This document shows, in pieces, positions 36,597 through 52,985 of a DNA stretch of 64,000 nt; position 1 is the first letter of the stretch; the number at the start of each line of letters is the position of its first letter. This DNA comes from Chryseobacterium sp. 6424. GTDB taxonomy: Bacteria > Bacteroidota > Bacteroidia > Flavobacteriales > Weeksellaceae. Made by a program: the position numbers and the translations under genes. Under the pieces are notes generated by a model. That model was not told the DNA's origin. It did no database searches and saw only the letters and a list, made by a program, of their open reading frames with translations. Location of the stretch: assembly GCF_003692615.1 (NCBI RefSeq), contig NZ_CP023540.1, positions 2,232,001 through 2,296,000 of the forward strand, read 5' to 3'.

Positions 36597-36993
36597 GGGG
36601 TTGACTGGTTTCGACAGCAAGACCAATGGGTAAGTAAGCATGCAGAGAACCGTAGCGCGATCTCTTAAATCCCTTGCTACAACATTTTAACTGGCGACCA
36701 AGAGTTTGCTCTTGCAGCATAATCTGAATTATAGTAGGATTCTGCGTTCTCCCGAAGTATAGTAAGGAGGCAAGATGTCTCACAAACGCTCTGTTCTGCG
36801 GCGTTTGAGTTTGAGGCATAGGAATGCGGAAATAAGTCTCGTTTCGCTTCGCAACGAGATCGAAAATTTTAGAAGTTAAGCTGTAAATTGGGTGTCTGTG
36901 CTCTGTCTACAGTCGAAAATCAAACACAGAATAAGCATGTAGAAAGCTTATGTATTGCTTGTTTGGACGAGGGTTCGAATCCCTCCAACTCCA
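36597..36993 (+). ncRNA. ssrA: tmRNA (intact)
   Basis: Rescues stalled ribosomes and tags the nascent chain for degradation. The 5' end GGGGTTGACTGGTTTCGACAG is the canonical tmRNA start. The 3' end GGTTCGAATCCCTCCAACTCCA gives the T arm and an acceptor strand (CAACTCC) that pairs with GGGGTTG; CCA is not encoded. The tag frame at 36693-36722 (GGC GAC CAA ... GCA GCA TAA) encodes GDQEFALAA with a stop, a typical Bacteroidota tag ending. About 397 nt. Its last 136 nt are repeated in diverged form at 52851-52985, and the stretch between the copies is a nitrate-reduction island. Confidence 0.96.
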
Positions 36994-37001
36994 CTTTTTA
37001 C

Positions 37002-37035
37002 AAATACAACTCGCTTCAATAAGCGAGTTGTATTT
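37002..37035 (+). terminator. Terminator of ssrA
   Basis: Perfect 15-bp stem (AAATACAACTCGCTT and its complement), loop CAAT, followed by a T tract; starts 9 nt after the tmRNA 3' end. Also convergent with the Rrf2 gene. Confidence 0.93.
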
Positions 37036-37064
37036 TTTTGACTGAAATCGTTTAAGGTATTGCT

Positions 37065-37481
37065 CTATGAAAATTTGATGCAGCCAATATCTTTGACTTC
37101 GCTTATTTTTAAGGTGTAGATTTGCTTGATCCGTTCTTTTATCTCGACACCTATCTCGTGTACGGGACAAGGTTTTTTACTGTTACATTCGGCAAGGCCT
37201 AAAATACACATCACTATTTGGTTTCCTGTCTCAAATATGTTGCAGATCTCTTTTACTGTAAGATTCTGATATTGTTCATTATTCAAATAAAAACCTCCGC
37301 TTCTTCCTTTAACAGATGAAATAATGTTTCCTTTTACTAATTTTTGTAAAATCTTCGATGTGAAATGTGCTGGCGAATTAATGTATGCCGCAATTTCTAC
37401 AACATCGGTTTTACTGCCGTTTTTCCGGGCAAGGTATATGCACGATTTTATGGCATACTGGCATGAATGAGAGAATATCAT
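37065..37481 (-). CDS. Rrf2-family Fe-S transcriptional regulator (NsrR/IscR-like)
   Basis: 138 residues. N-terminal winged helix (SHSCQYAIKSCIYLAR... TSKILQKLVKGNIISSVKGRSGGFYL) followed by a three-cysteine cluster motif: Cys92, Cys99 and Cys105 in MCILGLAECNSKKPCPVH. Rrf2 proteins with three such cysteines hold [2Fe-2S] or [4Fe-4S] clusters and sense nitric oxide (NsrR) or cluster status (IscR). Its position next to nitrate reduction genes favours sensing of NO or redox state. It is the last gene of the minus-strand unit, 7 nt after the porin stop. Confidence 0.88.
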   Translation of the reverse strand: MIFSHSCQYAIKSCIYLARKNGSKTDVVEIAAYINSPAHFTSKILQKLVKGNIISSVKGRSGGFYLNNEQYQNLTVKEICNIFETGNQIVMCILGLAECNSKKPCPVHEIGVEIKERIKQIYTLKISEVKDIGCIKFS

Positions 37482-37488
37482 TTGTTTA

Positions 37489-38760
37489 TTATTTTACTCG
37501 GAACGATGGTGTGAAGTTGAGTTGCACCCAACTCCAGGTCTGTATATCCTTAGGGACATTTACCGCCTTTAGGACTTCCATGGAACTGCTTCCGAACATA
37601 AACGAATGTCCTACATTCATCACAAACATTTTATTGAATTTATGAACATAAGCGAGATCGGCCTCAGTTCCTAAATAAGATGATTGGCTGTTTGCCAATT
37701 TCCCGTTGGTGGTGAATGCATGAAGGTTTACGATCAGTGAAGATTTCGGGTTAAATTTGGTAGTCATTTTCAGGTAGTAATCATTTAATCCAAATGAATT
37801 GAAATGGTTTCCTACATAAAAATAGTCCATATGTCCATTAAATTTATGGTTGGTCCCATAGAATGGACTGAACGACCTGTTTTCAGTAGCCTGCGTATCA
37901 TAATCCCGCCCGGAAAGCCACTCTGTCCCCAAAATTGCATTGAATTTTTGAGTGATGATGAAATCCGCGTTAAGGGAGAACTGATAAGCAGACTTGCTTT
38001 GTGCATTGGTGTTTTTCCCTGTCTGATAATATGCTGATCCAAAAACTCCGAAATTTTCAAAATATTTCTTCACATTTAGTCCTAATGTAAGCATATCATA
38101 GTGCATCCCAGAAGCTGTGTTCTGCACTACTGAATTAAGCGCGATACCTGATAACTGGAACTTGTTACTGTTTTGATATTGATAATGCAGTAGCTGTAAT
38201 GATTTTGTTTTTTCACCAGCATCGGCAATATCATAAATTTCATGTTCTGGAGTATCATTGGCATCATTGTCATCATTATTGTAGGTGACTACCGCTTCTA
38301 ATCTTGAGTTTTTACTGAGACTGAAAATCCCTTTCACCGCATCGAAACTCCTGCCTTGCATCGCCCAATCCATACCGCCAACTAATCTTTCATCATCATA
38401 AGAAAGCATCTGTCGACCGATCTTCAGGGCGGCTTTAGGCGTAAACTGATACTTAGCCCAGGCTTCATTTAGGATAAAATTCTGGTTTTTACTTGCTGCG
38501 GAGGCATTTTCTCCCCAAGTCCTAACGTCTTGTATGGAGAGATAGAGTTGCAGATTTTGGTAATAATAATCCATATTCAATCTGGCTCTGGATACTATGG
38601 TGGTTTCGGCAGACTTGCCTTCTGGGATTAATGTCTTTTGCCCGTTGTCCAACTCTGCACGTGTACGGAAATCCATCCCCATTTTCAGACTATCAACTTG
38701 TGCATTCACATTTGCAGAAATCAAGAACAGAGCGGTAGTAGTCACTAATTTTCTTATCAT
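37489..38760 (-). CDS. Outer-membrane porin (alginate-export-family-like barrel)
   Basis: About 423 residues from the ATG at 38760 (MIRKLVTTTALF, signal peptide ending VNAQ); an in-frame ATG 14 codons earlier is less likely. The rest is beta-strand rich with alternating hydrophobic residues and recognisable blocks of the alginate export barrel family: RTRAELDNGQ, SRARLNMDYYYQNLQLYLSIQDVRTWGE, KIGRQMLSYDDERLVGGMDWAMQGRSFDAVKG. It ends TPSFRVK. Given its place between a NarK transporter and the regulator, an outer-membrane pore for nitrate or nitrite is a reasonable inference, not shown by sequence. Confidence 0.8.
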   Translation of the reverse strand: MIRKLVTTTALFLISANVNAQVDSLKMGMDFRTRAELDNGQKTLIPEGKSAETTIVSRARLNMDYYYQNLQLYLSIQDVRTWGENASAASKNQNFILNEAWAKYQFTPKAALKIGRQMLSYDDERLVGGMDWAMQGRSFDAVKGIFSLSKNSRLEAVVTYNNDDNDANDTPEHEIYDIADAGEKTKSLQLLHYQYQNSNKFQLSGIALNSVVQNTASGMHYDMLTLGLNVKKYFENFGVFGSAYYQTGKNTNAQSKSAYQFSLNADFIITQKFNAILGTEWLSGRDYDTQATENRSFSPFYGTNHKFNGHMDYFYVGNHFNSFGLNDYYLKMTTKFNPKSSLIVNLHAFTTNGKLANSQSSYLGTEADLAYVHKFNKMFVMNVGHSFMFGSSSMEVLKAVNVPKDIQTWSWVQLNFTPSFRVK

Positions 38761-38840
38761 AACGATTTTTTCAACTGAATATAAAGGGTTGTATGATTGC
38801 AAACCTGTTAGATGATTTTATATTTTTAAATTTTAAAATG

Positions 38841-40172
38841 TTAAGAAGGTCTTTCACAGCCCTTTCTTGTGTAGAAATACCAATTGACCGCAACTGCCAT
38901 TACGCAACCTACCACCAGAAACCAGAAGAACAATCTTGCATCCCCAGTAAGTGCGCGGGACTGAGTAATCAATACATTAAATACAAATGGCCCAAATGCC
39001 GCAACCGCAGAGGTAAACCCAATAACACCTGCCGCTTTTCTCGGAGATTCTGAAAAAATGGTTGGGTATTGTTTAAAAGTGGCTGCATTACCGATACCAG
39101 TAAAGAAGAAAATCATTAAGACGATTATTAAAAACCCTTGAAACTGATCCGCCGACGTTGGTGTTAGGTAGCCTCCCAAGATTAATGTGGAAATTAAGAT
39201 TATTAAGGCGATACCGGTGATATGTGTAAGAATTGCGCCACCTGTTTTATCGGCAACTTTCCCAAAGATAATCCTTGAGGCTGAACCGATTAGCGGCCCG
39301 TAGAATGCGAACTGTAAAGGATCGATACCTTTATCTAATGGTGCGTATAGATTCTTGATCATCAACGGAAATGATGCGGACATACCTGCGAAAATACCAA
39401 ACGTCATAATGTAGGTCATCGTGCAATAAAGGGTGTGGCGATCTTTGAAAATATCCAACTGTTCCTTGAATGAAGCTTTTACCGGAATACTTTTCAGTGA
39501 AAACCATGCCCATATCCCAACGGCCAATAGTGGCAAAATATAAATGAATGCGATATTTTCGAGATAAATAGTTTTACCGGTCTCTACCACGATTTGTCCA
39601 CCTCCCATAAATGAAAAGATGCTTAAACCTATAATCAAAGGTGACAGGAGTTGTACTAAACTTACCCCAAAATTTCCTATACCAGCTTGGATTCCGAGTG
39701 CAGTCCCGGCTTCTTTTTTCGGGAAAAACAAGGAGGTGGAAGGCATATAAGAAGAAAAATCTCCGCCTCCGATCCCGAGTAAGAACCCGATTATCATAAA
39801 ATAGGTAAAGGAAGTCTCAGGATTCATCACTGCGAAACCTAGCATCACCAAGGGGATGATTTTGATGAAAGAACTGATAGAGATAATCTTTCGGGTGCCA
39901 TAGATGGGTATCAGAAAGGTATTTACGACTCTAAGAATCCCCCCCGCAAGTCCTGGCATCGCGGCCATCCAGAAGAGTTGATCGTCGGTAAATTGAAAAC
40001 CGATTTGTGGAAGTTTGATGACCACCACGCTGTAGAGAAACCAGGTGGCAAAGGAAATAATAAGTGCGGTGGTGGTAATAGTTAAAGTCTTCCAGGCTAT
40101 TTTTTTACCTTTCTTGTTCCAAAATTCTTCGTTGGATGGGTCGTAGTCTGTTAACCAATGGGTATTGCTCAT
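38841..40172 (-). CDS. narK: NarK-type nitrate/nitrite transporter (MFS, 443 aa)
   Basis: Twelve hydrophobic segments; nitrate/nitrite porter family. The signature regions are GIGGGDFSSYMPSTSLFFPKKEAGTALG and AGIGNFGVSLVQLLSP in the fifth segment, and a matching AGVIGFTSAVAAFGPFVF in the second half. It imports nitrate, exports nitrite, or exchanges them across the inner membrane. Together with the next gene it makes a NarK pair, an arrangement also known in denitrifiers where one is a proton symporter and the other an antiporter; which is which cannot be assigned here. Confidence 0.88.
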   Translation of the reverse strand: MSNTHWLTDYDPSNEEFWNKKGKKIAWKTLTITTTALIISFATWFLYSVVVIKLPQIGFQFTDDQLFWMAAMPGLAGGILRVVNTFLIPIYGTRKIISISSFIKIIPLVMLGFAVMNPETSFTYFMIIGFLLGIGGGDFSSYMPSTSLFFPKKEAGTALGIQAGIGNFGVSLVQLLSPLIIGLSIFSFMGGGQIVVETGKTIYLENIAFIYILPLLAVGIWAWFSLKSIPVKASFKEQLDIFKDRHTLYCTMTYIMTFGIFAGMSASFPLMIKNLYAPLDKGIDPLQFAFYGPLIGSASRIIFGKVADKTGGAILTHITGIALIILISTLILGGYLTPTSADQFQGFLIIVLMIFFFTGIGNAATFKQYPTIFSESPRKAAGVIGFTSAVAAFGPFVFNVLITQSRALTGDARLFFWFLVVGCVMAVAVNWYFYTRKGCERPS

Positions 40173-40215
40173 TTTCAGTAAGTTTATCTTTTAAATTATT
40201 CTTTTTGCTGCTGCG

Positions 40216-41697
40216 TTAGTGCTCAATTTTATCTTTGAGGTGTGGTGCCTCGTTGCGCATCATCTTTTTTATAACAGTATTCATCCAGAAAAGGGCGATA
40301 GCAGATACGATGAACACAAAGATCCAGGAACTTGTCCATAATCCGGAAAAAGTAAGCAGATAGCCGAATAAGATGGGGCCTATAAATCCGCCAAGTCCAC
40401 CAATAAGGCCTACCATACCGCCAACTACCCCCACTTCATTAGGGAAATATTCTGGTATATGTTTATAAACTGCCGCTTTGCCAATGCCCCACATGATCCC
40501 AATGAGAATGACCAATATGGAGAAAACCGTGATATGCGCCTCAAACTTGATCAGTGTGTTGCCTTTGGCCAACAGTTCTTTCTTATTCACAGCTTGATTT
40601 TGCTGTACCACCACTTCCTGCCAGGAAAAAGATTTCGGCAAAGCGGATACACTTTCAGGGATCTCCGGTTTTGTGATGACAGGAATTTCTTCGTTGTTCA
40701 AACTTATTTTTTCATTGGAGACCGAAGTTATCTTTCCGGATTTGCTGGCAATAATCCCTTTCCCTGGAGTTAGAATTTCCATTTTCGGAAGCATCAGCAA
40801 TCCACTGATGATTAATGAAGAGTATAAAACCCAATACATCACTCTTCTCGCCCCAAATTTATCGGAAAGATAGCCACCCAACGCCCGTACTACGCCACTT
40901 GGCAAACTAAAGGCCGATGCCAAAAGACCACCTAAAACCAATGAAGTTTTATATACATTCACATAATAAGGTAACAGCCATTGGGAAAAAGCCACAAACA
41001 AGCCGAACACGAGAAAATAATACAATCCGAAACGCCAAACACGTACTTGTTTTAAAGGTTTTAACAGGGAGCCAATGGTTTTCCCCTGAGCCTCTGGCCG
41101 TTTATTTTTAATAAAAAACATAAAAACAAAACCTATGACCAGAAGGGCAATACCGTAGAAAACAGGCAACATCCTCCACCCATTCTCCGGATTGTTTTCG
41201 GAGAGATAATTCAGTAAAGTGGGGGCCAATAGCGTTGTAATTGCGGCGCCCGCATTTCCCATCCCGAAAATACCCAACGCGCGGCCTTGCCAGTTTTTCG
41301 GGTACCAAACTGAAGTGAAGGCGATCCCGACCGCAAAGCTGGTTCCTACCATCCCGAATAAAGCGCTCAGTAAAAAATACAACCAGTAAGAATCTACATA
41401 ATACAATAGAAAAAAAGGAATACTACAAAGGAGTAATAAAAAGGTAAACACCTTTTGACCACCAAATTTATCAGTAAGCAAGCCCAATGGCAAGCGCATT
41501 AAAGAACCCGACAAAATGGGGATCCCTAGCAACCAACCTGTTTCTACCACACTCCAATTATAAATACCGTTGTCGGTAAGATAGGTTACCAAAACACCAT
41601 TCATCGTCCAAGCTGCAAAGCAAATTGTAAATGCAAGTGTGTTTAAAAATAATACGCGATGTGAGGATTTTAAGGATGTTGTTATGTCTGCACTCAT
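40216..41697 (-). CDS. narK: NarK-type nitrate/nitrite transporter with an extra soluble insert
   Basis: 493 residues, NNP-type MFS. Signature stretch FGMGNAGAAITTLLAP in the fifth segment and GVVGGMVGLIGGLGGFIGP in the second half. Unlike its neighbour it has an insert of about 80 residues (roughly 305-388) between segments, with short beta-like units (GKITSVSNEKISLNNEEIPV) and a helix (VVVQQNQAVNKKELLAKG). First gene of the minus-strand unit; two TAnnTTTG boxes lie upstream. Role as for NarK above; the insert may be regulatory or bind a partner. Confidence 0.88.
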   Translation of the reverse strand: MSADITTSLKSSHRVLFLNTLAFTICFAAWTMNGVLVTYLTDNGIYNWSVVETGWLLGIPILSGSLMRLPLGLLTDKFGGQKVFTFLLLLCSIPFFLLYYVDSYWLYFLLSALFGMVGTSFAVGIAFTSVWYPKNWQGRALGIFGMGNAGAAITTLLAPTLLNYLSENNPENGWRMLPVFYGIALLVIGFVFMFFIKNKRPEAQGKTIGSLLKPLKQVRVWRFGLYYFLVFGLFVAFSQWLLPYYVNVYKTSLVLGGLLASAFSLPSGVVRALGGYLSDKFGARRVMYWVLYSSLIISGLLMLPKMEILTPGKGIIASKSGKITSVSNEKISLNNEEIPVITKPEIPESVSALPKSFSWQEVVVQQNQAVNKKELLAKGNTLIKFEAHITVFSILVILIGIMWGIGKAAVYKHIPEYFPNEVGVVGGMVGLIGGLGGFIGPILFGYLLTFSGLWTSSWIFVFIVSAIALFWMNTVIKKMMRNEAPHLKDKIEH

Positions 41698-41759
41698 TTT
41701 TTATACAATTAAAAAGATTTCTTTTACGTAATAAAAATTGTTTTCCCAAAATTACAATG

Positions 41760-41767
41760 CAAAACTA
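41760..41767 (-). promoter_or_regulatory. -7 box candidate of the narK unit
   Basis: TAGTTTTG on the minus strand; a second candidate, TAATTTTG, lies at 41747-41754. Either would drive the minus-strand transporter-regulator unit. Confidence 0.45.
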
Positions 41768-41856: not shown

Positions 41857-41879
41857 TATCATAGAAATTATATTTAATA

Positions 41880-42941
41880 ATGAAATCAATTGATATAAAA
41901 GCTTTTGCAGTAGCCAATGTAGTGACAATGGTTACACTGGTGCTTATTATGATTGGCTCCCGAAATTTACAAAATTTTGATGCGGCATTGATAGCATATA
42001 TGTTTGGGACTTTATTCGCAATCTTCGGTATTGTTTACCGATATACGGTTTGGATACAAAGACCACCGACAAAAATCTACTTCAAGAGAAGTATCAAGAC
42101 TTTGTTTTCGAAAGAGTTTTTACACTTCTTTTGGTTTACAGTAAAAGACTTTTTTAGGAATATTGTCTTTCAAAGTTTCATCATCAAACGTGGCAATAAG
42201 AAAGGCATTGCCCATCTATTGATGGCAATTGGCTGTATGATGGCGTTTGCGATAACCATACCCCTTACTTTTGGTTGGGTGCATTTCACCTTGGTTCCCC
42301 ACACTGGGTTAGATCCTAATGCGATAGATATATACACTGCGCATTTTTTCGGATTTGAGATATATTCTTTCCCCGTCAAATCAATTATAGGATCGTTAAC
42401 TTTTGGTGCGCTTAACTGGTCTTCCCTTTTGGTAACACTTGGCGCAACCTATTTCCTGCAAAAGAGGTTGAAGGATCCGGGATTCATTGCAACACAAACA
42501 TTTGAAGGTGACATTTTACCCCTACTTTTATTGATATTGGTTTCTATCACAGGGGTCGGCATAACATTGGATTATACCTATATGGGCGGAAAAGCTTTTG
42601 AATTCATAGCCGTTACACACGCTTTCTTTGTGATTGTCTTTCTCATCTGGATGCCTTTCGGTAAATTTTTTCACATCATCCAGAGACCCGCGCAGATCGG
42701 TGCTCATATATATAAGGAAGTAGGCAAAAAGAGAGGCATGCAAGTTTGTAAACATACTGGGGCCGAATTTACCACTAAATTGCATGTGGCAGATTTGAAA
42801 GACATTACCAAAGCTGTGGGGTTCAATCTTCAGGACGAACACGGCAATTCCTTATTAGACTATAGCCCAGAAGGGAAAAGGGATTTACTCGCCATGGCCC
42901 ATCTCAGAGCCCGTAAGGAATCCGGACAGTTCTTTGGATAA
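41880..42941 (+). CDS. Membrane cytochrome b, NarI-like quinol-oxidising subunit
   Basis: 353 residues with about six membrane helices (near 9-27, 37-58, 112-133, 168-192, 212-231, 246-264) and a soluble C-terminal tail of about 85 residues. Histidines in or next to helices are candidates for heme b ligands: His112, His155, and His247 with His265, which are 18 residues apart in one helix as in NarI of respiratory nitrate reductase. As first gene of the unit it most likely oxidises menaquinol and passes electrons to the ferredoxin and molybdenum subunits. Family assignment is by histidine pattern and context, not by a recognised domain match. Confidence 0.68.
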   Translation: MKSIDIKAFAVANVVTMVTLVLIMIGSRNLQNFDAALIAYMFGTLFAIFGIVYRYTVWIQRPPTKIYFKRSIKTLFSKEFLHFFWFTVKDFFRNIVFQSFIIKRGNKKGIAHLLMAIGCMMAFAITIPLTFGWVHFTLVPHTGLDPNAIDIYTAHFFGFEIYSFPVKSIIGSLTFGALNWSSLLVTLGATYFLQKRLKDPGFIATQTFEGDILPLLLLILVSITGVGITLDYTYMGGKAFEFIAVTHAFFVIVFLIWMPFGKFFHIIQRPAQIGAHIYKEVGKKRGMQVCKHTGAEFTTKLHVADLKDITKAVGFNLQDEHGNSLLDYSPEGKRDLLAMAHLRARKESGQFFG

Positions 42942-42975: not shown

Positions 42976-45192
42976 ATGGCAAAATTACCTATAGAAGCAG
43001 AAAAAATTATCGAAAAATACGGCCCATCACTTCAAATGCCCAATAAAGAAGCCGTTCCGGGCAGAGACGAACCGGATAGAGTGGTGGAGACCCATTGCTG
43101 CTTCTGCGGTATGCAGTGTGGCATCAAACTTTTAGCAAAAAATAATAAAGTAGTAGGTTTTGAACCTTGGATGGAGTTTCCTTTCAACGAGGGGAGATTA
43201 TGCCCAAAGGGGGTGCTGCGTTACATGCAGAACAACCATGATGACCGTTTGACATCACCCATCGTTAATAAGCCTGGTGTTGGATTTGTACCAGTTTCCT
43301 GGGATGAAGCGATGGATACTACTGTTTCAGAGATCAAAAGAATACAGGAACAATACGGCAATGATGCCTTTGCCATGCTTTCTGGCGTTTCATTGACCAA
43401 CGAAAAATCCTATATGGTAGGCAAGTTTGCCAGAACCGCGCTTAAAACCAAAAACTTAGATTACAACGGCCGTCTTTGTATGGTTTCAGCCGGTGCTGGG
43501 AACAAAAAAGCATTTGGCTTAGATAGGACATCCAATAATTATCAGGATTTAGAGAAAGCAGAAGTCATCATCGTTACAGGAGCTAATGTATCCGAAACCT
43601 TCCCTACGCTAACACACTGGATTTGGAAAGCAAGGGATCTTGGGGCAAAACTCATCGTTGTGGACCCCCGTATGATTCCTTTAGCAAGGACCGCTGATAT
43701 TCATTTAGACATTCGGCCAGGGACTGATTCGGCACTTTTTGGGGCGATTCTTAACTATATGGTTCAGCATGACATGTTGGATCATGATTTTATAGACAAC
43801 CACACCTCCGGTTTCGAAGAAGCCATAGAAGCCGTAAAAGATTATACCCTAGAATGGGCAGAAGAAATCACAGGCGCTAAAAAGGAAAAAATTGAAGAAG
43901 CGGCAAAGCTTTGGGGAAAAGCCTCTACATCATTTCTCTTACATGCCCGAGGAATAGAGCATCATACCAAGGGTGTGGAGAATGTCCTTAGCTGCATAAA
44001 CATCGTTCTAGCTTCTGGTAGAATTGGCAAACCATACTGTGGCTACGGAACCATTACCGGACAAGGAAATGGGCAGGGCGGTAGAGAGCATGGCCATAAA
44101 TGCGACCAATTACCTGGAAACCGCGATATAGAGAACCCTGACCACCGGAAATACATATCGGAAGTCTGGGGAATCGACGAAAAAGATATGCCCGGAAAAG
44201 GACTTTCCGCCTACGAAATCATAGACGCCATACATCGTGGGGAAATTCGGGGACTCATTTCTATTTGTTTCAACCCCCTTGTGTCACTTCCTAACAGTAA
44301 ATATGTAAGAGAAGCCCTAGAAAAGTTAGAATTTTACGTAGGGATTGATTTCTTTTTAAGTGAAACCTTAAGACACGCAAATATTGTATTGCCAGGCAGT
44401 CTACACGAAGAAGAAGACGGTACGGTTACTACCGCGGAAGGCAGAGTGGTACGCATCAGAAAAGCGGTAGATCCGCCAAAAGGCGCAAGAACGGATTCCC
44501 AAATCATTATAGACCTTGCCAACAGATTAGGAGCGGGAGACAAATTCCCCTACCAAAAAAGCGAAGATGTTTTCAATGAACTGCGCGTAGCTTCTAAAGG
44601 AGGAACAGCAGACTACTACGGAATTACGTACGAAAAAATTGAAAAAAACATGGGCGTATTCTGGCCGTGCCCAGACCTGGATCATCCCGGGACGCCACGA
44701 CTATGGGAAGACAAGAAGTTCAAGACACCAGACGGCAAGGCGCATTTCAATCCTGTAAGATACCACGAAAGCGGCGACCCGGTTGATGCGGAATATCCAA
44801 TTATATTAACCACAGGACGGGTAGTCTCTCAATACCTAAGTGGCTCACAAACCCGTAGAATAGGTAAATTAGTAGAGCAGTTTGCACAACCATTATTGGA
44901 GGTTCACCCAACATTAGCCGCACAGTATGGCATCAAGCAAAATGAAGAAGTCATCGTAAAAACCAAAAGAGGCGAAGCCACCTTCCCTGCCAATATTGTA
45001 GAAACCATTAGGGAAGACACCGTTTTTCTCCCTTATCACTGGCCGGGTAGAAAATCCGCCAATCAATTAACAAGCGGCCATCTTGACCCAATTTCTAAGA
45101 TTCCAGAATTTAAAGTGAGTGCTTGTGCATTACAACCCACAGGAAAGATCGTAGAAATTAATAAAAATTCAGAAGCCTATAAAAGTTCATAA
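42976..45192 (+). CDS. Molybdopterin nitrate reductase, NasA/NasC type catalytic subunit
   Basis: 738 residues of the DMSO reductase superfamily, using bis-MGD molybdenum. The N-terminal [4Fe-4S] motif [10 protein letters not shown]...RLCPKG supplies Cys41, Cys44, Cys48 and Cys76; the [10 protein letters not shown] wording is typical of assimilatory-type enzymes. The probable molybdenum ligand is Cys168 in [11 protein letters not shown], as in Nas and Nap. [22 protein letters not shown] follows in mid-protein, and the MGD-binding C-terminal domain ([18 protein letters not shown]) closes it. There is no twin-arginine signal, so it works in the cytoplasm. Assimilatory-like catalytic subunit but respiratory-like neighbours, so the role may be respiratory or dual. 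Reduction of another oxyanion cannot be excluded. Confidence 0.87.
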
Positions 45193-45196: not shown

Positions 45197-45763
45197 ATGT
45201 CTCAATATTATAAATTACAAGAAGAGTTTTTTGTGGATATGCAGCGCTGTATCGGTTGCAAATCTTGCGAAGCTGCCTGTGCAGAGTGCGAAACCAATGG
45301 CGAGGAACCTATGATCCATGTGAACTATGTGAACAGAGCCGAAACCATACAGACTACGGTTCAGGTATGCATGCACTGCGAGGATCCGGTCTGTGCCAAC
45401 GTGTGCCCAGCGGATGCCATTACCAAAGACGAATTTGGGATCGTACATACCGCGAACACTTCCCGTTGCATCGGTTGTTCTAACTGTGTGATGGCTTGCC
45501 CGTTTGGGGTTCCCAAAAAAGTAGAACAATACGACCTGATGATGAAGTGCAATATGTGCTACGACAGAACAAGTGTAGGGAAAAAACCAATGTGTGCGAC
45601 AGTTTGCCCTAGTGGCGCCCTATACTATGGCACCAGAGAAGAAATGGCTAAAATGAGACCTAACTCCACCCCTGTAAATCGCTTTATTTTCGGTATGGAA
45701 ACTGTAAAAACAAAAGTGAACATTATGATGCCAAAAGGAAGTACAGAACTGAAAATCTTTTAA
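45197..45763 (+). CDS. Four-cluster [4Fe-4S] ferredoxin subunit
   Basis: 188 residues with sixteen suitably placed cysteines in four groups: [48 protein letters not shown] and CNMCYDR with CATVCPSG. This is the electron-transfer subunit plan of DmsB, NrfC and HycB-type proteins. It starts 4 nt after the molybdenum subunit stop. No signal peptide, so cytoplasmic face. It probably carries electrons from cytochrome b (or the Rieske protein) to the catalytic subunit. Confidence 0.93.
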
Positions 45764-45799: not shown

Positions 45800-46300
45800 A
45801 TGAGCAACGAAGATAAACACTGGAAGCAAGATTTCCCTATAAACAGAGGAGAAGCAAACCAAGTGAGCCGAAGAGATTTCGCAAAATTATTGGCAGTAGT
45901 ATCCGGAGGAATGGTTTTAGGGAACGGACTTATTGCAGCAAATGCCTTTTTCACTGATAAAAGAGAAGGAGGCGAGAAACACAAAATATGCTCAAAAAGT
46001 GATATCCCAGTTGGTGGGACCAAATCCTTTGTTTTAGAAAACGAAACGATCCCCTATATTCTAATCCATACCGAAGAAGGCGAGTTTTATGCATACGAAC
46101 AAAAATGCACCCATCTTTCCTGTGCTGTCTATTATAAACCTGGTACATTAAAAATCGAATGCCCGTGCCATAACGGCTGGTTTGATGTGAAGACTGGGGC
46201 AGTATTGCAAGGCCCGCCACCACGTCCGCTGAAAAAACTGGTGGTAACCCTGGAAGGTGAAGAAATCTTTGTAGAACATCCTAAAACCGAAAAAGCATGA
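45800..46300 (+). CDS. Tat-exported Rieske [2Fe-2S] protein
   Basis: 166 residues. Twin-arginine signal VSRRDFAKLLAVVSGGMVLGNGL at about residues 22-44 that may remain as an anchor, then a Rieske domain with Cys103-x-His105 (CTHLSCAVYY) and Cys121-x2-His124 (CPCHNGWFDV) as the cluster ligands. A twin-arginine export signal places it in the periplasm, whereas the catalytic and ferredoxin subunits lack signals. That suggests a quinol-oxidising Rieske/cytochrome b arrangement, as in bc-type complexes, rather than a direct donor to the cytoplasmic enzyme. Confidence 0.88.
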   Translation: MSNEDKHWKQDFPINRGEANQVSRRDFAKLLAVVSGGMVLGNGLIAANAFFTDKREGGEKHKICSKSDIPVGGTKSFVLENETIPYILIHTEEGEFYAYEQKCTHLSCAVYYKPGTLKIECPCHNGWFDVKTGAVLQGPPPRPLKKLVVTLEGEEIFVEHPKTEKA

Positions 46301-46536
46301 GTAACTTCAGAACTGGACAAGAAAGCGCCCATCCACAGAAAAAAAGCATGATCATGTCCACCCTTATCGTCGTGCTTTTAACAAATCTCCTCATTCAGAT
46401 TTGGCTGCTGTACACCGCACTGAACAATGCCTTAGATGGTCATGAAGAAGTGGCCTATAGTACCTTTATCGCCTCTTTAGTATTATTTTTGGCAAGTACT
46501 ATCTGGCTGTACTTCTTACCAAAAAATGTAAAATAA
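46297..46536 (+). CDS. Small two-helix membrane protein (DUF6755-like)
   Basis: 79 residues with two hydrophobic segments (STLIVVLLTNLLIQIWLLYTAL and TFIASLVLFLASTIWLYFL) joined by a short acidic loop. Its ATG overlaps the Rieske stop (ATGA), so it is translationally coupled and likely a subunit of the same membrane complex. The resemblance to DUF6755 is from memory and only tentative. No catalytic residues are evident. Confidence 0.72.
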   Translation: MSNFRTGQESAHPQKKSMIMSTLIVVLLTNLLIQIWLLYTALNNALDGHEEVAYSTFIASLVLFLASTIWLYFLPKNVK

Positions 46537-46539
46537 TTG

Positions 46540-47517
46540 ATGCTGAAAGACAAACACAATAGAATACACGATTACCTGCGGATATCCATCACCGATAACT
46601 GCAACTTTCGCTGCACCTATTGTATGCCGGACGAGAAAATTACTTTTTTAAAGAAGCAATTCCTAATGTCACCCGATGAGATCTTCCAACTCTCAAAAAC
46701 CTTTGTGGGATTAGGCGTTAATAAGATAAGATTAACGGGTGGCGAACCATTGGTCAGAAAAGATTTTGGCGAAATTATTTCAAGATTATCCCTACTATCC
46801 GTCAAAATTGGCATCTCAACCAATGGCTTACTCTTGGATCGGTATTTAGACGACATCAAGAAAGCCGACATCTCGTCCATCAATATTAGTTTGGACACCT
46901 TGAATCCGGAAAAATTCAAAAACATAACGCAACGCAATAACTTCAGGCAGGTGTGGGATAACATCCTGTTATGCATCAAAGAAAACATTCACGTAAAAGT
47001 GAACATGGTCGTGATAAAAGGTGTGAATGATGAGGAGATTGCTGATTTTGTCTCCCTCACCAAAACGCTTCCGATACACGTACGACTGATCGAATTCATG
47101 CCTTTCGACCAGAACAACTGGAACCAGGAGAAAGTATACAGTAATAAAGCTGCACTAGAAAAGATCAGCGAGCAATTTCCGCTGTTCAAACTGAAAGACG
47201 GCAAAAGCGATACCGATAAAAAATTCGGGATTTTTGGGCATACCGGGACCATCAGTTTCATTTCTACCCTTACCGATTCCTTTTGCAGCACCTGCAACCG
47301 AATGCGGGTTACAGCGGATGGGAAAATGAAAAACTGCCTCTTCGGAAAAGATGAATTGGATCTTATATCTGCCATCAGAAAAGGAGAAAGCATTATCCCG
47401 ATCATCGAAAAATCGATTTTCTTGAAACATCAAAAATTAGGCGGACAGTTTGATGATTATAAAAACATAGAGCCCCATATTTTAGAAAATCGTAGTATGA
47501 TAAAAATTGGTGGGTGA
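46540..47517 (+). CDS. moaA: GTP 3',8-cyclase (molybdenum cofactor step 1)
   Basis: Radical SAM enzyme making cyclic 3',8-dihydro-GTP from GTP. Starts at the ATG 46540 (a TTG just before is less likely), 3 nt after the previous stop. 325 residues: radical SAM motif Cys21-x3-Cys25-x2-Cys28 in DNCNFRCTYC, SAM-binding RLTGGEP, and the second [4Fe-4S] cluster at the C-terminus (FCSTCNRMRVTADGKMKNCLFG). It ends in the Gly-Gly tail that completes MoaA's active site. It opens the cofactor block of the island. Confidence 0.96.
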   Translation: MLKDKHNRIHDYLRISITDNCNFRCTYCMPDEKITFLKKQFLMSPDEIFQLSKTFVGLGVNKIRLTGGEPLVRKDFGEIISRLSLLSVKIGISTNGLLLDRYLDDIKKADISSINISLDTLNPEKFKNITQRNNFRQVWDNILLCIKENIHVKVNMVVIKGVNDEEIADFVSLTKTLPIHVRLIEFMPFDQNNWNQEKVYSNKAALEKISEQFPLFKLKDGKSDTDKKFGIFGHTGTISFISTLTDSFCSTCNRMRVTADGKMKNCLFGKDELDLISAIRKGESIIPIIEKSIFLKHQKLGGQFDDYKNIEPHILENRSMIKIGG

Positions 47518-47558: not shown

Positions 47559-48734
47559 ATGATAAGCTATCCATCTGCAATAGAAATTCTAAAAAACAGA
47601 AGTAAAGATCATAAGGAAGTAACTTTACCTTTAGCAAAGTGTCTTCATCTACAGGCGGCAGAAGATGTTTTTGCCCCTATCAATGTCCCTACATTCGATA
47701 ATTCAGCGATGGATGGATATGCCTTTCGGTATGAAGATTATCAAAATGGCACATCGCTTAGAACAATCAGCGAAATCCAGGCAGGAACAAACCTGCTTCT
47801 ATCCATTGGGAAAGGAGAAGCCGCCAGAATTTTTACAGGTGCTCCTATTCCCGAAAATGCGGATACGGTGATTCCCCAGGAAAATGTGTCAGTGGAAAAT
47901 GGAATGCTGAAGTTTCAAAAACCCATTAAAAAAAACGCCAACATTAGACGGAAAGGAACGCAGACACAGCGGGGAGCTTTAATCCTGAAATCCAACGCAA
48001 GGATAACAGCAGAATACATCGGCTTCTTAGCCACTTTTGGGATATCTGAACTAAAGGTATATTCGCCACCCAAAATAGGGATCATTGTTACTGGCAAGGA
48101 ACTGGTAAAGGCGGGCACCCCACTACAAGCCCATCAAATATACGAGAGTAATGCTGTTTTTCTAACTGCCGCGTTACTGGGATTGGGCATAGAACCTGCG
48201 TTTTCGGTTTGGGTGGATGATGACGAAAATGAACTAAGGAAAACAATTCAGGAAGGTATTGAAAAAGTTGATATCCTGGTACTAACAGGAGGCATTTCTG
48301 TTGGTGATTATGATTTTGCAAAACCAGTTTTAGAGGAATTAGGCGTACAGGAATCCTTTTACAAAGTAAAGCAGAAACCCGGGAAACCTCTTTTTTTCGG
48401 CACCTTGAAAAATACAGAAATCTTCGCGCTTCCCGGAAACCCCAGTGCAGTAGTGACATGCTATCATGCTTATCTTAAACCCTTTATAAACGCAAAAATG
48501 GGTGATGAGCGTTTTGACAAAAAAGAAGCCGGCATCCTATTGACTGATTACACGAAAAAAACAGGGCTCACCCATTTTGTAAAAGCTTTTGTAGAAAACA
48601 ATAAGGTAGAGATCCTGCCAAACCAATTATCGTATCAAATGGATGCTTATGCCAGAGCCAACGCGTTTGCCATCCTTCCGGAAAACCGAGACCATTTTCA
48701 GATAGGTGAAAAAGTGCACATAATCAAGTTTTGA
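47559..48734 (+). CDS. moeA: Molybdopterin molybdenumtransferase
   Basis: Inserts molybdenum into adenylated molybdopterin. 391 residues with the family core: NVPTFDNSAMDGYAF, EIQAGT, ARIFTGAPIPENADTVIPQENV, GIIVTGKELV, and TGGISVGDYDF with FALPGNPSAVVTCYH. Domains run in the MoeA order with the C-terminal domain at about 330-391. It is within the cofactor run, 41 nt after moaA. Confidence 0.95.
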   Translation: MISYPSAIEILKNRSKDHKEVTLPLAKCLHLQAAEDVFAPINVPTFDNSAMDGYAFRYEDYQNGTSLRTISEIQAGTNLLLSIGKGEAARIFTGAPIPENADTVIPQENVSVENGMLKFQKPIKKNANIRRKGTQTQRGALILKSNARITAEYIGFLATFGISELKVYSPPKIGIIVTGKELVKAGTPLQAHQIYESNAVFLTAALLGLGIEPAFSVWVDDDENELRKTIQEGIEKVDILVLTGGISVGDYDFAKPVLEELGVQESFYKVKQKPGKPLFFGTLKNTEIFALPGNPSAVVTCYHAYLKPFINAKMGDERFDKKEAGILLTDYTKKTGLTHFVKAFVENNKVEILPNQLSYQMDAYARANAFAILPENRDHFQIGEKVHIIKF

Positions 48735-48741
48735 AATTGGT

Positions 48742-49467
48742 ATGGATACTTATCTAATCTTAGTCCTTTTCTCGGTAGTGGCGTTTCTGTACGCTTCAGT
48801 TGGCCACGGTGGAGCTAGCGGCTACATTGCTCTGATGGCCATTTTTGCATTCCCTCAAAATGAAATAAAAACAAATGCGCTTTTTTTAAACCTGTTTGTT
48901 TCTTTTGTTTCATTCACGCAGTTTTTCAAGAAAGACGATTTCCCTTATAAACTGTTTTTCATCCTGGTCGCATTTTCTATTCCTATGGCCTTCTTAGGTG
49001 GCATTTGGACATTGCACGACCGTATCTACAAGGTGATCCTGGGACTTATATTATTGATACCGATAGCCAAATTTTTGGGGATTTTCCCGAAAACACAATT
49101 TTCTGTCAAACAAAATCTGCCTATACTGATCATTTTGGGCTTGGGCATCGGCTTACTCTCAGGTCTATTGGGCATCGGTGGCGGAATTATTTTAAGCCCA
49201 ATCTTAATTCTTTTAGGTTGGTGTACTGTAAAACAAACTGCGGCAGTAAGTGCTATTTTCATCTTTGTAAATTCATTGGCAGGATTATTGGGTAAAAGTT
49301 TCTCTACCATACAGTTTTCCGAAAACATTACACAGATCCTTATCTTCACCGTCATTGGCGGTATCTTAGGCGGCTTTTTCGGGGCCAAAAAATTCAAAGT
49401 GCAGTGGATTCAGTATACACTTGCGCTGGTGCTTATCATCGCTTGCTTTAAACTTTTCACCACATAA
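48742..49467 (+). CDS. TSUP/TauE-SafE family membrane transporter
   Basis: 241 residues, about seven to eight hydrophobic segments, with the duplicated TSUP half pattern: GHGGASGYIALMAIFAFPQNEIKTNAL in the first half and LGLGIGLLSGLLGIGGGIILSPILILLGW in the second. The family carries sulfite, sulfonates or other oxyanions. It sits in the middle of the cofactor operon, between moeA and mobA, 7 nt after the moeA stop. No modABC molybdate transporter is visible, so molybdate or nitrite are speculative cargoes. Confidence 0.82.
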   Translation: MDTYLILVLFSVVAFLYASVGHGGASGYIALMAIFAFPQNEIKTNALFLNLFVSFVSFTQFFKKDDFPYKLFFILVAFSIPMAFLGGIWTLHDRIYKVILGLILLIPIAKFLGIFPKTQFSVKQNLPILIILGLGIGLLSGLLGIGGGIILSPILILLGWCTVKQTAAVSAIFIFVNSLAGLLGKSFSTIQFSENITQILIFTVIGGILGGFFGAKKFKVQWIQYTLALVLIIACFKLFTT

Positions 49468-49474
49468 TCAAAAA

Positions 49475-50038
49475 ATGAAAACCTATATTCTTTCGGGCGG
49501 GAAAAGTTCACGGATGGGTACCGACAAAGGACTGGTGCTTCTTCATCAAAAACCTTTGGTTTCTTATTTAATAGAGACGCTGCAAAACATTGCTCAAGAA
49601 ATAAAGATCATAGCGCACGAGCCTGGATATTTGAACTTTAACCTGCCGGTGATCCAAGATTACTATCCTGAAAAAGGACCGCTGGGGGGTATCTTTACCG
49701 CTTTGAGAGATGCGAAATCCGATTGCCTGGTCATCAGTGTAGATACGCCTTTTATTTCTGCAAACCATTTTATTAAAATGATGGAAGCTCATCAGGAAAA
49801 CCAACTTACACTGGCGTTTTCAGACACCAAGATGTATCCGCTATTCGGCATTTATCCTCATCAGATTATTACACAGGTTGAAAAAAGCATACAGCAGAAC
49901 AAGTTGAAATTGATGGACTTTTTAGATGGAAACAGCTATCAAAAGGTTGACTTCAACTTTTCGATGTTAGAGAAAATGAATATCAATACCTTTGAAGAAT
50001 TAAAAACGGCAGAAAAAATACTTGAAAATGGAAATTAA
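49475..50038 (+). CDS. mobA: Molybdenum cofactor guanylyltransferase
   Basis: Adds GMP to Mo-molybdopterin, giving the MGD form that NasA/NapA-type enzymes need. The start at 49475 gives MKTYILSGGKSSRMGTDKG, with the nucleotide-binding signature LxGGxSxRMGxDK. 187 residues; PLGGIFTALRDA and VDTPFISANHF match the family. It overlaps moaD by 17 nt. Its presence fits a bis-MGD enzyme such as the nitrate reductase of the island. Confidence 0.93.
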   Translation: MKTYILSGGKSSRMGTDKGLVLLHQKPLVSYLIETLQNIAQEIKIIAHEPGYLNFNLPVIQDYYPEKGPLGGIFTALRDAKSDCLVISVDTPFISANHFIKMMEAHQENQLTLAFSDTKMYPLFGIYPHQIITQVEKSIQQNKLKLMDFLDGNSYQKVDFNFSMLEKMNINTFEELKTAEKILENGN

Positions 50039-50255
50039 AACTTTCGGCAAAATTTCAGAGATTGTAAATAAAAAACTGGAACTGGTATTTCCTATAAGCT
50101 TTACAGAACTTAAAACAGCAATAGAAGAGCAGTTCCCAGCGCTGAAAACGCTGCATTACAAAATAGCCATCAACGACGAACTGATTTCTGAAGAAGATCA
50201 CATCATCACACAACCGCAATCTATCGTAATAATGCCCCCATTCTCTGGCGGATAA
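50022..50255 (+). CDS. moaD: Molybdopterin synthase sulfur carrier subunit
   Basis: 77-residue ubiquitin-fold protein whose C-terminal Gly-Gly (MPPFSGG) is activated by MoeB, loaded with sulfur and used by MoaE. Start either ATG 50022 or 50028; both lie inside the mobA end. The N-terminal MEIKTFGKISEIV and TQPQSIVIMPPFSGG resemble MoaD. 11 nt before moeB. Confidence 0.9.
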   Translation: MKMEIKTFGKISEIVNKKLELVFPISFTELKTAIEEQFPALKTLHYKIAINDELISEEDHIITQPQSIVIMPPFSGG

Positions 50256-50266
50256 AACCTTAAAAA

Positions 50267-51349
50267 ATGCAAAGATATTCCAGACAGATTATTCTGCCAA
50301 ACTTCGGTGCTGAAGCTCAAAGTCACTTGTTAAACAGCAAAGTGCTGGTGGTGGGAGCAGGGGGGTTGGGCATTCCTGTATTACAATACCTTGCAGCTGC
50401 AGGCGTCGGGAAATTGGGAATTGCGGATGGCGATGTAATAGAAATCAGCAATTTGCAAAGACAAGTACTTTATAATGAAACTGAAATAGGTAAAAATAAA
50501 GCTCGTACAGCCGGGGAGAAAATTGCAAAATTAAATTCCGCGATCAAACTGGAGGTTTATGATTATTTCATAGATCAAGCTTCTGTTTTCACCCTCATTG
50601 AAGGCTATGATGTGGTAGTAGATTGTACGGATCATTTTTCAATCCGGTATCTGCTGAATGATGCATGCTCTCTACTAAAAAAACCATTGGTGTATGCTTC
50701 TATCTTTCAATTCGAAGCACAGGTCTCCGTATTTCATTACGGCGACGTTCCTTATAATCTTCGCGATGTTTTTCCGGAAATCCCTGATGACAAATCAGTC
50801 CCTAACTGTAACGAAGCCGGTGTTATCGGTACCTTAGCAGGGATTACAGGAAGTTTGCAAGCAAGTGAAGTCATCAAAATAATCACCAAAATCGGGATAG
50901 TCAATAGCGGAAGAATGCTGTTATTCAACAGTTTGAGCAATCAAATCACCCAACTTTCCATTTCGAAGAACAGCAAGATTTTTCTGCCAAATTCTAAAGA
51001 CGAAATCCTTCAAAAAAACTATGGATTTTTTTGTACCAACGCCATCTCTTTGAAAAAACTAAGCGATCTGGAAGCCGCTTTAAGGCAAGAAAGTGCTGTT
51101 TTGATTGATGTTCGGGAGAAGAACGAATTACCGAAAATATCTACCCTTTCAACACTAGAGATTCCATTATCTGAACTATCCGATAAAATTGACGTATTAC
51201 AGCAATTTGACACTTTGGTGTTTATTTGTAAAAGCGGGGTGAGGAGCAGGAAAGCACTTGATGAAATATCAGGAATCCTTCCACTGAAGCAACTTTACCA
51301 TTGCGAAAATGGTATAAATATATTTGAAGATGAAAAAAAGTTTTGTTAA
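50267..51349 (+). CDS. moeB: MoeB-like adenylyltransferase with C-terminal rhodanese domain
   Basis: Adenylates the MoaD C-terminus and, through the rhodanese part, can pass on sulfur. 360 residues: the E1-like Rossmann domain has VLVVGAGGLGIPVLQYL, the ISNLQRQVLY arginine finger and VPNCNEAGVIG with Cys181. The cysteine pair that holds zinc in E. coli MoeB is missing (the segment reads PYNLRDVFPEI). The rhodanese domain (about 260-360) contains LIDVREKNELP and active-site Cys in ICKSGVRSRKA. The fusion matches other MoeBR proteins. Overlaps moaE. Confidence 0.9.
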   Translation: MQRYSRQIILPNFGAEAQSHLLNSKVLVVGAGGLGIPVLQYLAAAGVGKLGIADGDVIEISNLQRQVLYNETEIGKNKARTAGEKIAKLNSAIKLEVYDYFIDQASVFTLIEGYDVVVDCTDHFSIRYLLNDACSLLKKPLVYASIFQFEAQVSVFHYGDVPYNLRDVFPEIPDDKSVPNCNEAGVIGTLAGITGSLQASEVIKIITKIGIVNSGRMLLFNSLSNQITQLSISKNSKIFLPNSKDEILQKNYGFFCTNAISLKKLSDLEAALRQESAVLIDVREKNELPKISTLSTLEIPLSELSDKIDVLQQFDTLVFICKSGVRSRKALDEISGILPLKQLYHCENGINIFEDEKKFC

Positions 51350-51758
51350 CGGAGCCATCTCTCCGGAAAAAATCGCGACCAGTATCGCGAATCATCAGCA
51401 TAAAACCAATATCGGTGGACACGCCATTTTTTTAGGCCAGGTACGGGCAGACGAAATAGAAGGGAGGGTTGTAAAAGCTATAGAATTTACTGCTTATGAA
51501 GCACTTGCCGAGCATAAATTTGAGGTAATTCGGGAAGATATTTTCGCAAAATACCCATTGGTCTGTATGCACATGTATCACAGTTTAGGCAGAATCGGGA
51601 CAGGTGAAATCTGTCTTTTCGTATTTACTTCTTCCAAACACCGAAAGGCGGCCCAACAGGCCTGTGACGAACTGGTAGAGAGGATAAAAGCCGAAGTCCC
51701 GATCTGGGGAAAGGAAATCTTTGAAGATGAAACCCATCAATGGAAAGAGAATAACTAA
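51330..51758 (+). CDS. moaE: Molybdopterin synthase catalytic subunit
   Basis: Converts cyclic pyranopterin monophosphate to molybdopterin using MoaD thiocarboxylate. 142 residues from the ATG 51330, which overlaps the moeB stop by 20 nt; a TTG start 6 nt before is possible. Family blocks: HAIFLGQVRADE, VKAIEFTAYEALAE, MYHSLGRIGTGEI and the AACDELV-like HRKAAQQACDELVERIKAEVPIWGKEIFED with the active-site Lys. Confidence 0.94.
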   Translation: MKKSFVNGAISPEKIATSIANHQHKTNIGGHAIFLGQVRADEIEGRVVKAIEFTAYEALAEHKFEVIREDIFAKYPLVCMHMYHSLGRIGTGEICLFVFTSSKHRKAAQQACDELVERIKAEVPIWGKEIFEDETHQWKENN

Positions 51759-51775
51759 TAAATACAGCAAGTTAG

Positions 51776-52684
51776 ATGGTAGATATAACGCATAAAAATA
51801 ATTCATTAAGAATCGCTGTGGCAAAAGCAGTCGTAGCTGTAAGCAAGCCAGAAACGATTTTGGCACTGGAAAACAAGACCGTTCCGAAAGGTGATGTATT
51901 CGAAATGGCAAAAACTGCCGGTCTTTTTGCCGCTAAAAGAACTTCGGATATGATACCCGACTGCCATCCGCTACCTATTGAATATACCAAGATCAGTTAT
52001 GAGATTTCGGGTTTGGAGGTTTCCATTTTTGTGGAAATAAAAACCATCTACAAAACTGGTGTAGAAGTGGAGGCGATGCACGCCGCATCTGTAGTGGCAC
52101 TTACGTTCTATGATATGCTAAAACCCATTGATAAAGAGATTGAAATTAAAAACATCAGGCTATTAGAAAAAAAAGGTGGCAAATCGGATAAAAAAGAGCA
52201 CTTCGAGCAACCTATAAAAACCTCAGTGCTGGTTTGTTCAGACAGCATTTCAGAAGGTAAGAAAGAAGACTTTTCCGGAAAAATCATTTTGGAGAAACTG
52301 AAATCCGAGCCAGTAGAAATCTGCAGTTATGATATTATACCAGATGGTGTAGAAAATATCCAAACCCAAATTGCGAAATACATTTCAAATAAGGTAGAAT
52401 TGATTTTGATTACCGGTGGCACAGGGCTTTCTAAAAGAGATTTTACACCTGAAGCCATCAAACCTATCCTGAACACAGAAATCCCGGGAATTGGCGAACA
52501 TTTAAGACAATACGGGCAAAACCGGATGCCCTATTCTATCTTGTCACGAAGCATCGGTGGGCTCATTGGTGACACATTGGTCATCGCCTTACCCGGTTCT
52601 ACAAATGGTGCAAAAGAATCTATGGAAGCGCTCTTTCCGTCAGTTCTACATATTTTCAAAATGATACATTCAGGAAAACATTAG
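51776..52684 (+). CDS. moaC: MoaC-MoaB fusion (cyclic pyranopterin synthase + molybdopterin adenylyltransferase)
   Basis: 302 residues in two domains. MoaC (about 1-155): GDVFEMAKTAGLFAAKRTSDMIPDCHPLP and VEVEAMHAASVVALTFYDM carry its active-site residues and complete pyranopterin formation after MoaA. MoaB/MogA-type domain (about 160-302): CSDSISEGKKED, LITGGTGLSKRDFTPEAI, and ALPGSTNGAKE, which adenylates molybdopterin before MoeA. Fused MoaCB is known in Bacteroidota. It ends the cofactor run, and the island boundary lies 167 nt further. Confidence 0.94.
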   Translation: MVDITHKNNSLRIAVAKAVVAVSKPETILALENKTVPKGDVFEMAKTAGLFAAKRTSDMIPDCHPLPIEYTKISYEISGLEVSIFVEIKTIYKTGVEVEAMHAASVVALTFYDMLKPIDKEIEIKNIRLLEKKGGKSDKKEHFEQPIKTSVLVCSDSISEGKKEDFSGKIILEKLKSEPVEICSYDIIPDGVENIQTQIAKYISNKVELILITGGTGLSKRDFTPEAIKPILNTEIPGIGEHLRQYGQNRMPYSILSRSIGGLIGDTLVIALPGSTNGAKESMEALFPSVLHIFKMIHSGKH

Positions 52685-52850
52685 TATTAACTTTATATAT
52701 AGTAAAAATATCCTCTCACACAATTTCGGCGATTTTCAACTCTATTGAAGCGTTGATTACTGCGGTTGGGTGTAGAAATAAAATTAACTCAGTCTGTTTT
52801 TAAGACATTTTGCGTTAATTTCAGATTGGTCCGGTAAAACTTCGGTTCGG

Positions 52851-52985
52851 GATCGAAAATTTAGAAGTTAAGCTGTAAATTGGATATCTATGCTCTGTTT
52901 GCAGTCGAAAATGAAACACAGAATAAGCATATAGAAAGCTTATGTATTGCTTGTTGGGACGAGGGTCCGAATCCCTCCAACTCCA
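52851..52985 (+). pseudogene. Diverged duplicate of the ssrA 3' end (island right boundary)
   Basis: 135 nt matching 36858-36993 of tmRNA with 9 substitutions and one deletion by hand comparison (about 93% identity). Conserved: GATCGAAAAT, AGAAGTTAAGCTGTAAATTGG, ACACAGAATAAGC, and the acceptor end TCCCTCCAACTCCA. Changed: the T loop reads GGTCCGAATCC instead of GGTTCGAATCC. No tmRNA 5' half exists nearby, so it cannot make tmRNA. It keeps its own hairpin terminator. It is either the displaced original 3' end or a decayed attachment copy. The preceding gap, 52685-52850, holds nothing else I can identify. Confidence 0.93.

Follow-up and report, generated by a model that had tools for sequence, protein, structure and literature searches.

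Traffic at transfer-messenger RNA (tmRNA) genes was reportedly treated by Williams in 2003. Two described kinds of island come close to the locus analyzed here. Islander-type tDNA islands, in the accessible part of their description, carry a regenerated tmRNA gene at one end and a displaced fragment of it at the other (PMC4383910). In Dehalococcoides, the vcrABC islands place a respiratory reductase module 3' of the single-copy tmRNA gene, ssrA, within the bounds of an ssrA direct repeat; sixteen of these islands are reported to contain the integration module, which is described as present 'in many cases', not in every one (PMC3146451). Here, we analyzed a 64,000-nucleotide (nt) stretch of Chryseobacterium sp. 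6424 (contig NZ_CP023540.1, positions 2,232,001 to 2,296,000; hereafter the window), in which a 16-kb nitrate reductase and molybdenum cofactor (Moco) module is bracketed by an intact ssrA on one side and a displaced 3' copy of that gene on the other. The locus was compared across 36 Kaistella genomes, the window genome included (35 others). Its boundaries, a site that is empty in relatives, a reductase missing from all 35 other genomes and an ancestry incongruent with that of the host identify it as a horizontally acquired island at ssrA. We further consider it probable that the island entered by site-specific recombination, that its integrase was lost later and that the imported module serves a host with the nitrite reductase NirK.

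Boundaries of the island and the empty site

The features that define the two ends are as follows.

36597..36994, + strand: ssrA, intact tmRNA gene, left island end (ARAGORN; Rfam RF00023 at 36597-36996, 154 bits)
37002..37035, + strand: terminator-like hairpin 3' of intact ssrA, unlike the AATAACC..GGTTATT hairpins frequent among Kaistella
52840..52986 (alignment to 52988), + strand: second ssrA 3' end, displaced or decayed, marking the right end of the island
52995..53023, + strand: terminator-like hairpin 3' of the ssrA fragment, AATAACC..GGTTATT type, as after ssrA at empty sites of the genus
53117..53376, + strand: small open reading frame (ORF) between fragment and pckA (by-eye alignment), also found ahead of pckA where the site is empty in G001 and G032
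53482..55086, - strand: pckA, core gene past the right end (TIGR00224 over cut-off; in 36/36 genus genomes)

An intact tmRNA gene thus stands at one end and a displaced fragment, on the same strand, at the opposite end. The mature CCA end read off the sequence is at 36993, where the first-pass annotation, made from the sequence alone, had placed it. The diverged 3' copy which that annotation reported is also real, although the 135 nt assigned to it (52851-52985) is slightly short: 52840-52988 aligns with ssrA positions 251-400 over ~149 nt at 91% identity with a local score of 228, against at most 29 for the next-best ssrA-like match elsewhere in the window (both strands scanned in 500-nt pieces). 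In a repeat search, it is the longest direct repeat within 36300-53700 (143 nt, 92%). The copy looks decayed, as it carries changes in and near the T-arm that are absent from the other 33 aligned sequences, and the insertion is therefore probably not very recent. The terminator of the empty-site type after the fragment, together with the other type after intact ssrA, is in line with the old 3' end having been pushed rightward. Past the fragment, the window is syntenic with G001 and G032 (terminator, small ORF, pckA). The frame of the small ORF looks interrupted in the window genome. Two matches to Flavo-1 RNA were also recorded, at 3345-3420 and 36384-36487, the latter just upstream of ssrA.

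In the nearest sister, G001 (pckA 94% identical), ssrA and pckA are separated by 572 nt, which represents the empty site and agrees with the expectation that such a site should read from ssrA directly to the pckA side. For comparison, pckA of Kaistella sp. 97-N-M2 is 91% identical to that of the window. The clean empty site in the nearest sister makes the effect of a single acquisition directly testable.

Distribution and ancestry

The NasC-like reductase of the island is present only in the window genome among the genus sample (1/36). In a sample of 395 genomes of the order, it occurs in 15, the window genome included. MoaE is likewise confined to 1/36 genomes, and MoaA, which gives at least weak matches in all 36, exceeds its cut-off in the window genome only. 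NirK is over cut-off in 32/36 genomes, including that of the window, and NrfA was found in 0/36. On these profile matches, the genus appears to be mostly nitrite-reducing and without MoaA or MoaE, with nitrate reduction gained in one species. Because NirK is so widespread in the genus, the island would supply the missing first step of denitrification.

We compared the reductase with 80 named loci kept of 204. Two 5.4-kb metagenome contigs (L032, L033) match NasC at 92-93% identity, a Bacteroidetes bin at 88%, Sphingobacterium sp. xlx-96 (L035) at 86% and a second Sphingobacterium at 83%; identity is at most 79% to other Flavobacterium records among these loci and 72-74% to three sequences from its own family, Weeksellaceae. 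A wider protein search added more relatives at 80-92%. The L032 and L033 contigs sit in bins labelled Clostridia and Flavobacterium, and may be misbinned or mobile DNA. In a tree of 28 rows selected from sequences at hand, the window NasC falls in a 100/100 clade of six with Sphingobacterium-type sequences, and the three Weeksellaceae rows, including one with a long branch, group apart from it with 100/98 support. Judged from this tree, the ancestry of NasC is incongruent with that of the host.

L035 alone among the 80 loci matches the island in the order and orientation of its 15 larger genes, a comparison in which many loci were too short or had their Moco genes elsewhere. It carries two extra ORFs between moaA and moeA, and its gene-for-gene identity to the island ranges from 45% (mobA) to 90% (4Fe-4S protein); thus, it is not the direct donor. 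Scans of six ORFs in the flanks of L035 gave ordinary families for five and nothing for the sixth. A plasmid or phage origin was also considered and rejected: neither 72,556 plasmid records nor 50,697 phage records contain a close DNA match to 36597-53480. Relatives of the reductase occur on 52 plasmid records, the best, from Deinococcus, being ~60% identical.

The ssrA-pckA slot in Kaistella

The two genes flanking the slot, ssrA and pckA, are convergent and linked within 75 kb in 27/36 genomes, counting G035, in which ssrA itself is cut by a contig end; in the other nine, they lie on different contigs (eight genomes) or far apart (G007). The 27 gaps measure 62-953 nt in eight genomes, 1.4-2.8 kb in five and 6.5-74 kb in 14, the window's included. 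A profile search placed recombinase ORFs 3' of ssrA in 14/35 relatives, in six clusters at 45% identity; the profile was built from six slot proteins chosen by eye, and several slots were covered only in part. When ten slot proteins from all six clusters were compared with Pfam, the integrase domain was over cut-off in eight, under it in one and missing in one. Five of the six clusters, covering 12 genomes, are thereby confirmed, and the G005/G023 cluster is not (no Pfam match for G005, below cut-off for G023). Copies of at least 11 nt of the ssrA 3' end lie at the far end in 11 of 29 relatives' regions. The slot is an integration hotspot in Kaistella, which the present comparison documents.

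The exact ssrA repeat beside the 413-aa integrases is ~11-15 nt; in G035, it is 23 nt with two mismatches. Long ssrA fragments are also present in two relatives, G027 (298 nt) and G035 (221 and 134 nt). In G035 (C7:637844-689707; L132-L134), the contig-cut ssrA is followed by one short end repeat, two long 3' pieces and then pckA, and the profile search gave no recombinase in the interval between the long pieces. G027 (C1:25330-101453; L135-L138) has tandem integrase elements at ssrA, and its 298-nt piece, near-identical to intact ssrA, lies before the second of their integrases, which starts ~210 nt after it. Across the family, a second ssrA 3' match was met in at least 23 of 320 genomes; the count is a minimum, since no more than two candidates were scored per genome.

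The nitrate and molybdenum cofactor module

Between the two ssrA ends are 17 genes, each with an actual or plausible role in nitrate use or Moco synthesis, which bears out the earlier statement that the cargo belongs to one function.

37065..37481, - strand: Rrf2-family regulator (PF02082, E 2.3e-17; slightly below TIGR00738 cut-off)
37489..38802, - strand: outer-membrane porin, Alginate_exp family (PF13372, E 1.6e-12)
38841..40172, - strand: NarK/NarU-type nitrate/nitrite porter (NF011608, E 5.8e-85, below cut-off; PF07690)
40216..41697, - strand: second NarK-type porter (TIGR00886, E 7.3e-52, below cut-off)
41880..42941, + strand: membrane protein, 353 aa, putative quinol-side subunit (no Pfam match)
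42976..45192, + strand: NasC-like molybdopterin nitrate reductase, 738 aa (NF047855, E 3.3e-250, 832 bits against a cut-off of 1100)
45197..45763, + strand: 4Fe-4S electron-transfer subunit (PF13247, E 2.5e-21)
45800..46300, + strand: Rieske protein (PF00355, E 1.1e-13)
46297..46536, + strand: DUF6755 protein, 79 aa (PF20540, E 3.4e-10)
46537..47517, + strand: moaA (TIGR02666, 339.5 bits, over cut-off of 284)
47559..48734, + strand: moeA (NF007960, E 5.5e-96, below cut-off; TIGR00177 domain over cut-off)
48742..49467, + strand: TauE/SafE (TSUP) permease, candidate molybdate importer (PF01925, E 2.4e-27)
49421..50038, + strand: mobA (NF001457, E 4.2e-35, below cut-off; real start probably within the ORF)
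50022..50255, + strand: moaD, 77 aa, Gly-Gly C-terminus (ThiS family PF02597, E 5.8e-7, over cut-off)
50267..51349, + strand: moeB/moeZ-type adenylyltransferase (NF006444, E 1.1e-90, below cut-off)
51324..51758, + strand: moaE (PF02391, E 5.4e-25, over cut-off)
51776..52684, + strand: moaC-moaB fusion (NF002947, 406 bits, over cut-off of 285)

The complete pathway for the bis-molybdopterin guanine dinucleotide form of Moco is encoded (MoaA, MoaC, MoaB, MoaD, MoaE, MoeB, MoeA and MobA), with moeA, mobA and moeB assigned as best matches below the NCBIfam equivalog cut-offs. The enzyme is not of the NarGHI type: the 4Fe-4S protein scores 36.6 bits against 524 for narH, and no NarG model appears among 25 of the 27 families listed for the large subunit. 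Integrase, phage and defence families are missing from the best Pfam and NCBIfam matches of the cargo; PHROGs and PADLOC were not run.

In the 353-aa membrane protein, His112, His247, His265, His276, His302 and His341 are invariant in 77/77 aligned sequences (query included; two of 78 hits removed on length or identity), as would be expected for a haem-carrying, quinol-oxidising membrane protein. No twin-arginine motif was seen in the first 41 residues of the NasC-like subunit, which is therefore probably cytoplasmic. The N-terminus of the Rieske protein, SRRDFAKLL, is twin-arginine-like. This protein (45800-46300) thus has an export-type signal, and the adjoining reductase has none.

In the proposed scheme, the NarK porters would carry nitrate in and nitrite out, and the membrane, Fe-S and Rieske proteins would relay electrons from quinol to the NasC-like enzyme. 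MoaA, MoaC-B, MoaD, MoaE, MoeB, MoeA and MobA would make the cofactor in a genus otherwise without MoaA and MoaE, and the resulting nitrite would pass to the host's own NirK. The role of an exported Rieske protein beside a cytoplasmic reductase is not explained by this scheme. Flavobacterium columnare NBRC 100251 (L107) has a reductase homologue that is 77% identical, and nitrate improved anaerobic growth of strain ATCC 49512 in the part of the report available (PMC5395568). Both the host NirK and the growth of F. columnare bear only indirectly on the putative dissimilatory use of nitrate. The locus shows a whole trait, comprising transport, enzyme and cofactor, that moved as a single block into a genus in which the other genomes sampled lack MoaA and MoaE, and the acquired module could join a resident nitrite reductase.

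Mode of entry

Horizontal acquisition follows from the presence of the reductase in 1/36 genomes, the empty sister site and the grouping of NasC with the Sphingobacterium type. For the route, we favour recombination at ssrA: the module would have been carried or accompanied by an integrase element such as those often seen at the ssrA-pckA site, and subsequent loss of the integrase would have left the cargo fixed. The first-pass annotation had called the locus the footprint of integration at ssrA. The acquisition holds up on the empty site, the 35/35 absence, the tree and the native-type right flank; the word 'footprint' is not fully supported for an island with no integrase and an overlong repeat.

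Several observations count against this route or against the function assigned to the cargo. First, the island has no integrase, as all nine PF00589 matches of the genome lie outside the window, and its end gaps (36997-37070 and 52685-52845) give only short weak hits to remnants of an element. Second, the ssrA copy is ~149 nt, against ~11-15 nt beside integrase-bearing elements at the same site. Third, intact ssrA is closest to G001 at positions 1-240 and 271-340; however, its hairpin 241-270 matches G032/G025, and the half-hairpin of the fragment is of the G001/G002 type, so it is unclear for each segment which copy is native. Fourth, no donor island at ssrA was detected, since blastn of ssrA against the 80 nasC loci gave one marginal 21-nt hit; ARAGORN on 29 of these loci gave no tmRNA. 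Fifth, the shift in composition is modest: the G+C content is indeed lower in 15 island genes than in 27 flank ORFs hand-picked from the ORF list (0.407 versus 0.439, Mann-Whitney p 1e-4), as is that at third codon positions (0.416 versus 0.460, p 9e-4), and the composition check proposed earlier gives no more than this small difference. Finally, the reductase, which may work as a nitrate reductase, is below the NasC equivalog cut-off of NF047855, and the respiratory role of the module is putative.

The missing integrase and the overlong repeat keep homologous recombination in view as the entry route. A DNA circle, or a transformed fragment, would have brought the module together with the 3' half of another Kaistella's ssrA and recombined with the resident gene in the Campbell manner; this would account for both features, and the two copies differ in the hairpin at 241-270 in a way that suggests the import of a piece of foreign ssrA. 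Against this, integrase elements have hit the same site repeatedly, and long fragments also occur in G027 and G035, in G027 with an integrase gene ~210 nt past the fragment. We therefore regard this route as unlikely.

Two separate events seem somewhat less probable again. An older, now lost element would have left the ssrA fragment, and the module would have landed later between the ends by unrelated means. The serial fragments in G035 and the decayed state of the window fragment are in keeping with such a history, but the module nearly fills the gap, leaving 70 nt between ssrA and its first gene and 155 nt between its last gene and the fragment, and these end gaps hold at most short weak hits to other slot elements. 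An ancestral module lost in all other members of the genus has the small composition shift as its sole point in favour and is rejected as highly improbable, given its presence in 1/36 genomes, the empty sister site and a tree position outside the three Weeksellaceae sequences.

Action in trans by an integrase of the same genome was examined over seven stretches covering eight of its nine PF00589 matches and is without support, as none of the fetched ORFs clusters with the slot recombinases. One Phage_integrase match elsewhere in the genome (G000, C1:277879-278421) has an internal stop.

Molybdate uptake

A wider proposal is that a Moco-free, nitrite-reducing lineage gained the whole of nitrate respiration in one step, with the TauE/TSUP permease as a molybdate importer in place of ModABC. 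We hold this to be possible but somewhat doubtful. TauE/TSUP permeases lie within Moco clusters both at 48742-49467 and in loci L035-L111 and L181-L190. In 38 of 42 fetched loci that hold both moeA and mobA, tauE lies between them, and no ModA-like ORF occurs in any of these 38; within the other four stretches, there is neither tauE nor a ModA-like ORF. The window genome and its nearest sister have no match to PF13531 (ModA type).

Seven genomes could be read for both genes. In four (the window's, G292, G219 and G367), tauE is in the cluster and PF13531 is missing from the genome; in three (G364, G400 and G155), which are the three Weeksellaceae, ModA is present and the cluster has no tauE. 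This complementarity is a small sample of four versus three. G292, G219 and G367 are the genomes of loci L050, L098 and L074, and tauE in L098 and L074 is deduced from their not being among the four loci without it. ModA adjoins moaCB in G364 and G400 and lies ~9 kb from the cluster in G155. Counting against the importer are two Flavobacteriales genomes with ModA (G178 and G159), four without a PF13531 match (G038, G243, G389 and G409) and two with a weaker one (G321 and G363), in none of which tauE status was read, as well as the diversity of TSUP proteins described in the accessible text of PMC5840216. The gene is a testable candidate for the unassigned molybdate importer.

Comparison with known systems

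In the literature covered (titles and abstract openings, with subscription journals thinly represented), there was nothing on this island, on Kaistella ssrA islands or on TauE as a molybdate importer. Nitrate reductase and Moco clusters in other Bacteroidota (Flavobacterium, Sphingobacterium) have the same gene set as the Kaistella island; in contrast, the 80 loci have no nearby ssrA beyond the marginal hit described above. Riemerella belongs to the same family as the host of the window. The 10K island of Riemerella anatipestifer has a tested integrase and direct repeats; its repeat is 53 bp and its integrase is present, unlike in the Kaistella island, and ssrA is not named as the site in the portion of the paper available (PMC6764341).

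Compared with Islander-type islands, as far as the available description of these goes (PMC4383910), the Kaistella island differs in its missing integrase. The Dehalococcoides islands have a 20-bp repeat and a serine recombinase in the accessible account (PMC3146451), whereas the Kaistella island has a repeat of ~149 nt, no integrase and a cargo of nitrate reductase and Moco genes. The first-pass annotation had stressed as unusual that the cargo is a full metabolic module of transport, reductase and cofactor. That reading of the cargo is right; the claim that it is unusual for being metabolic is too strong, because the vinyl chloride respiration islands of Dehalococcoides already provide a precedent for metabolic cargo at ssrA. 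In summary, the Kaistella island clearly belongs to a known kind of genomic island, and its cargo is unusual.

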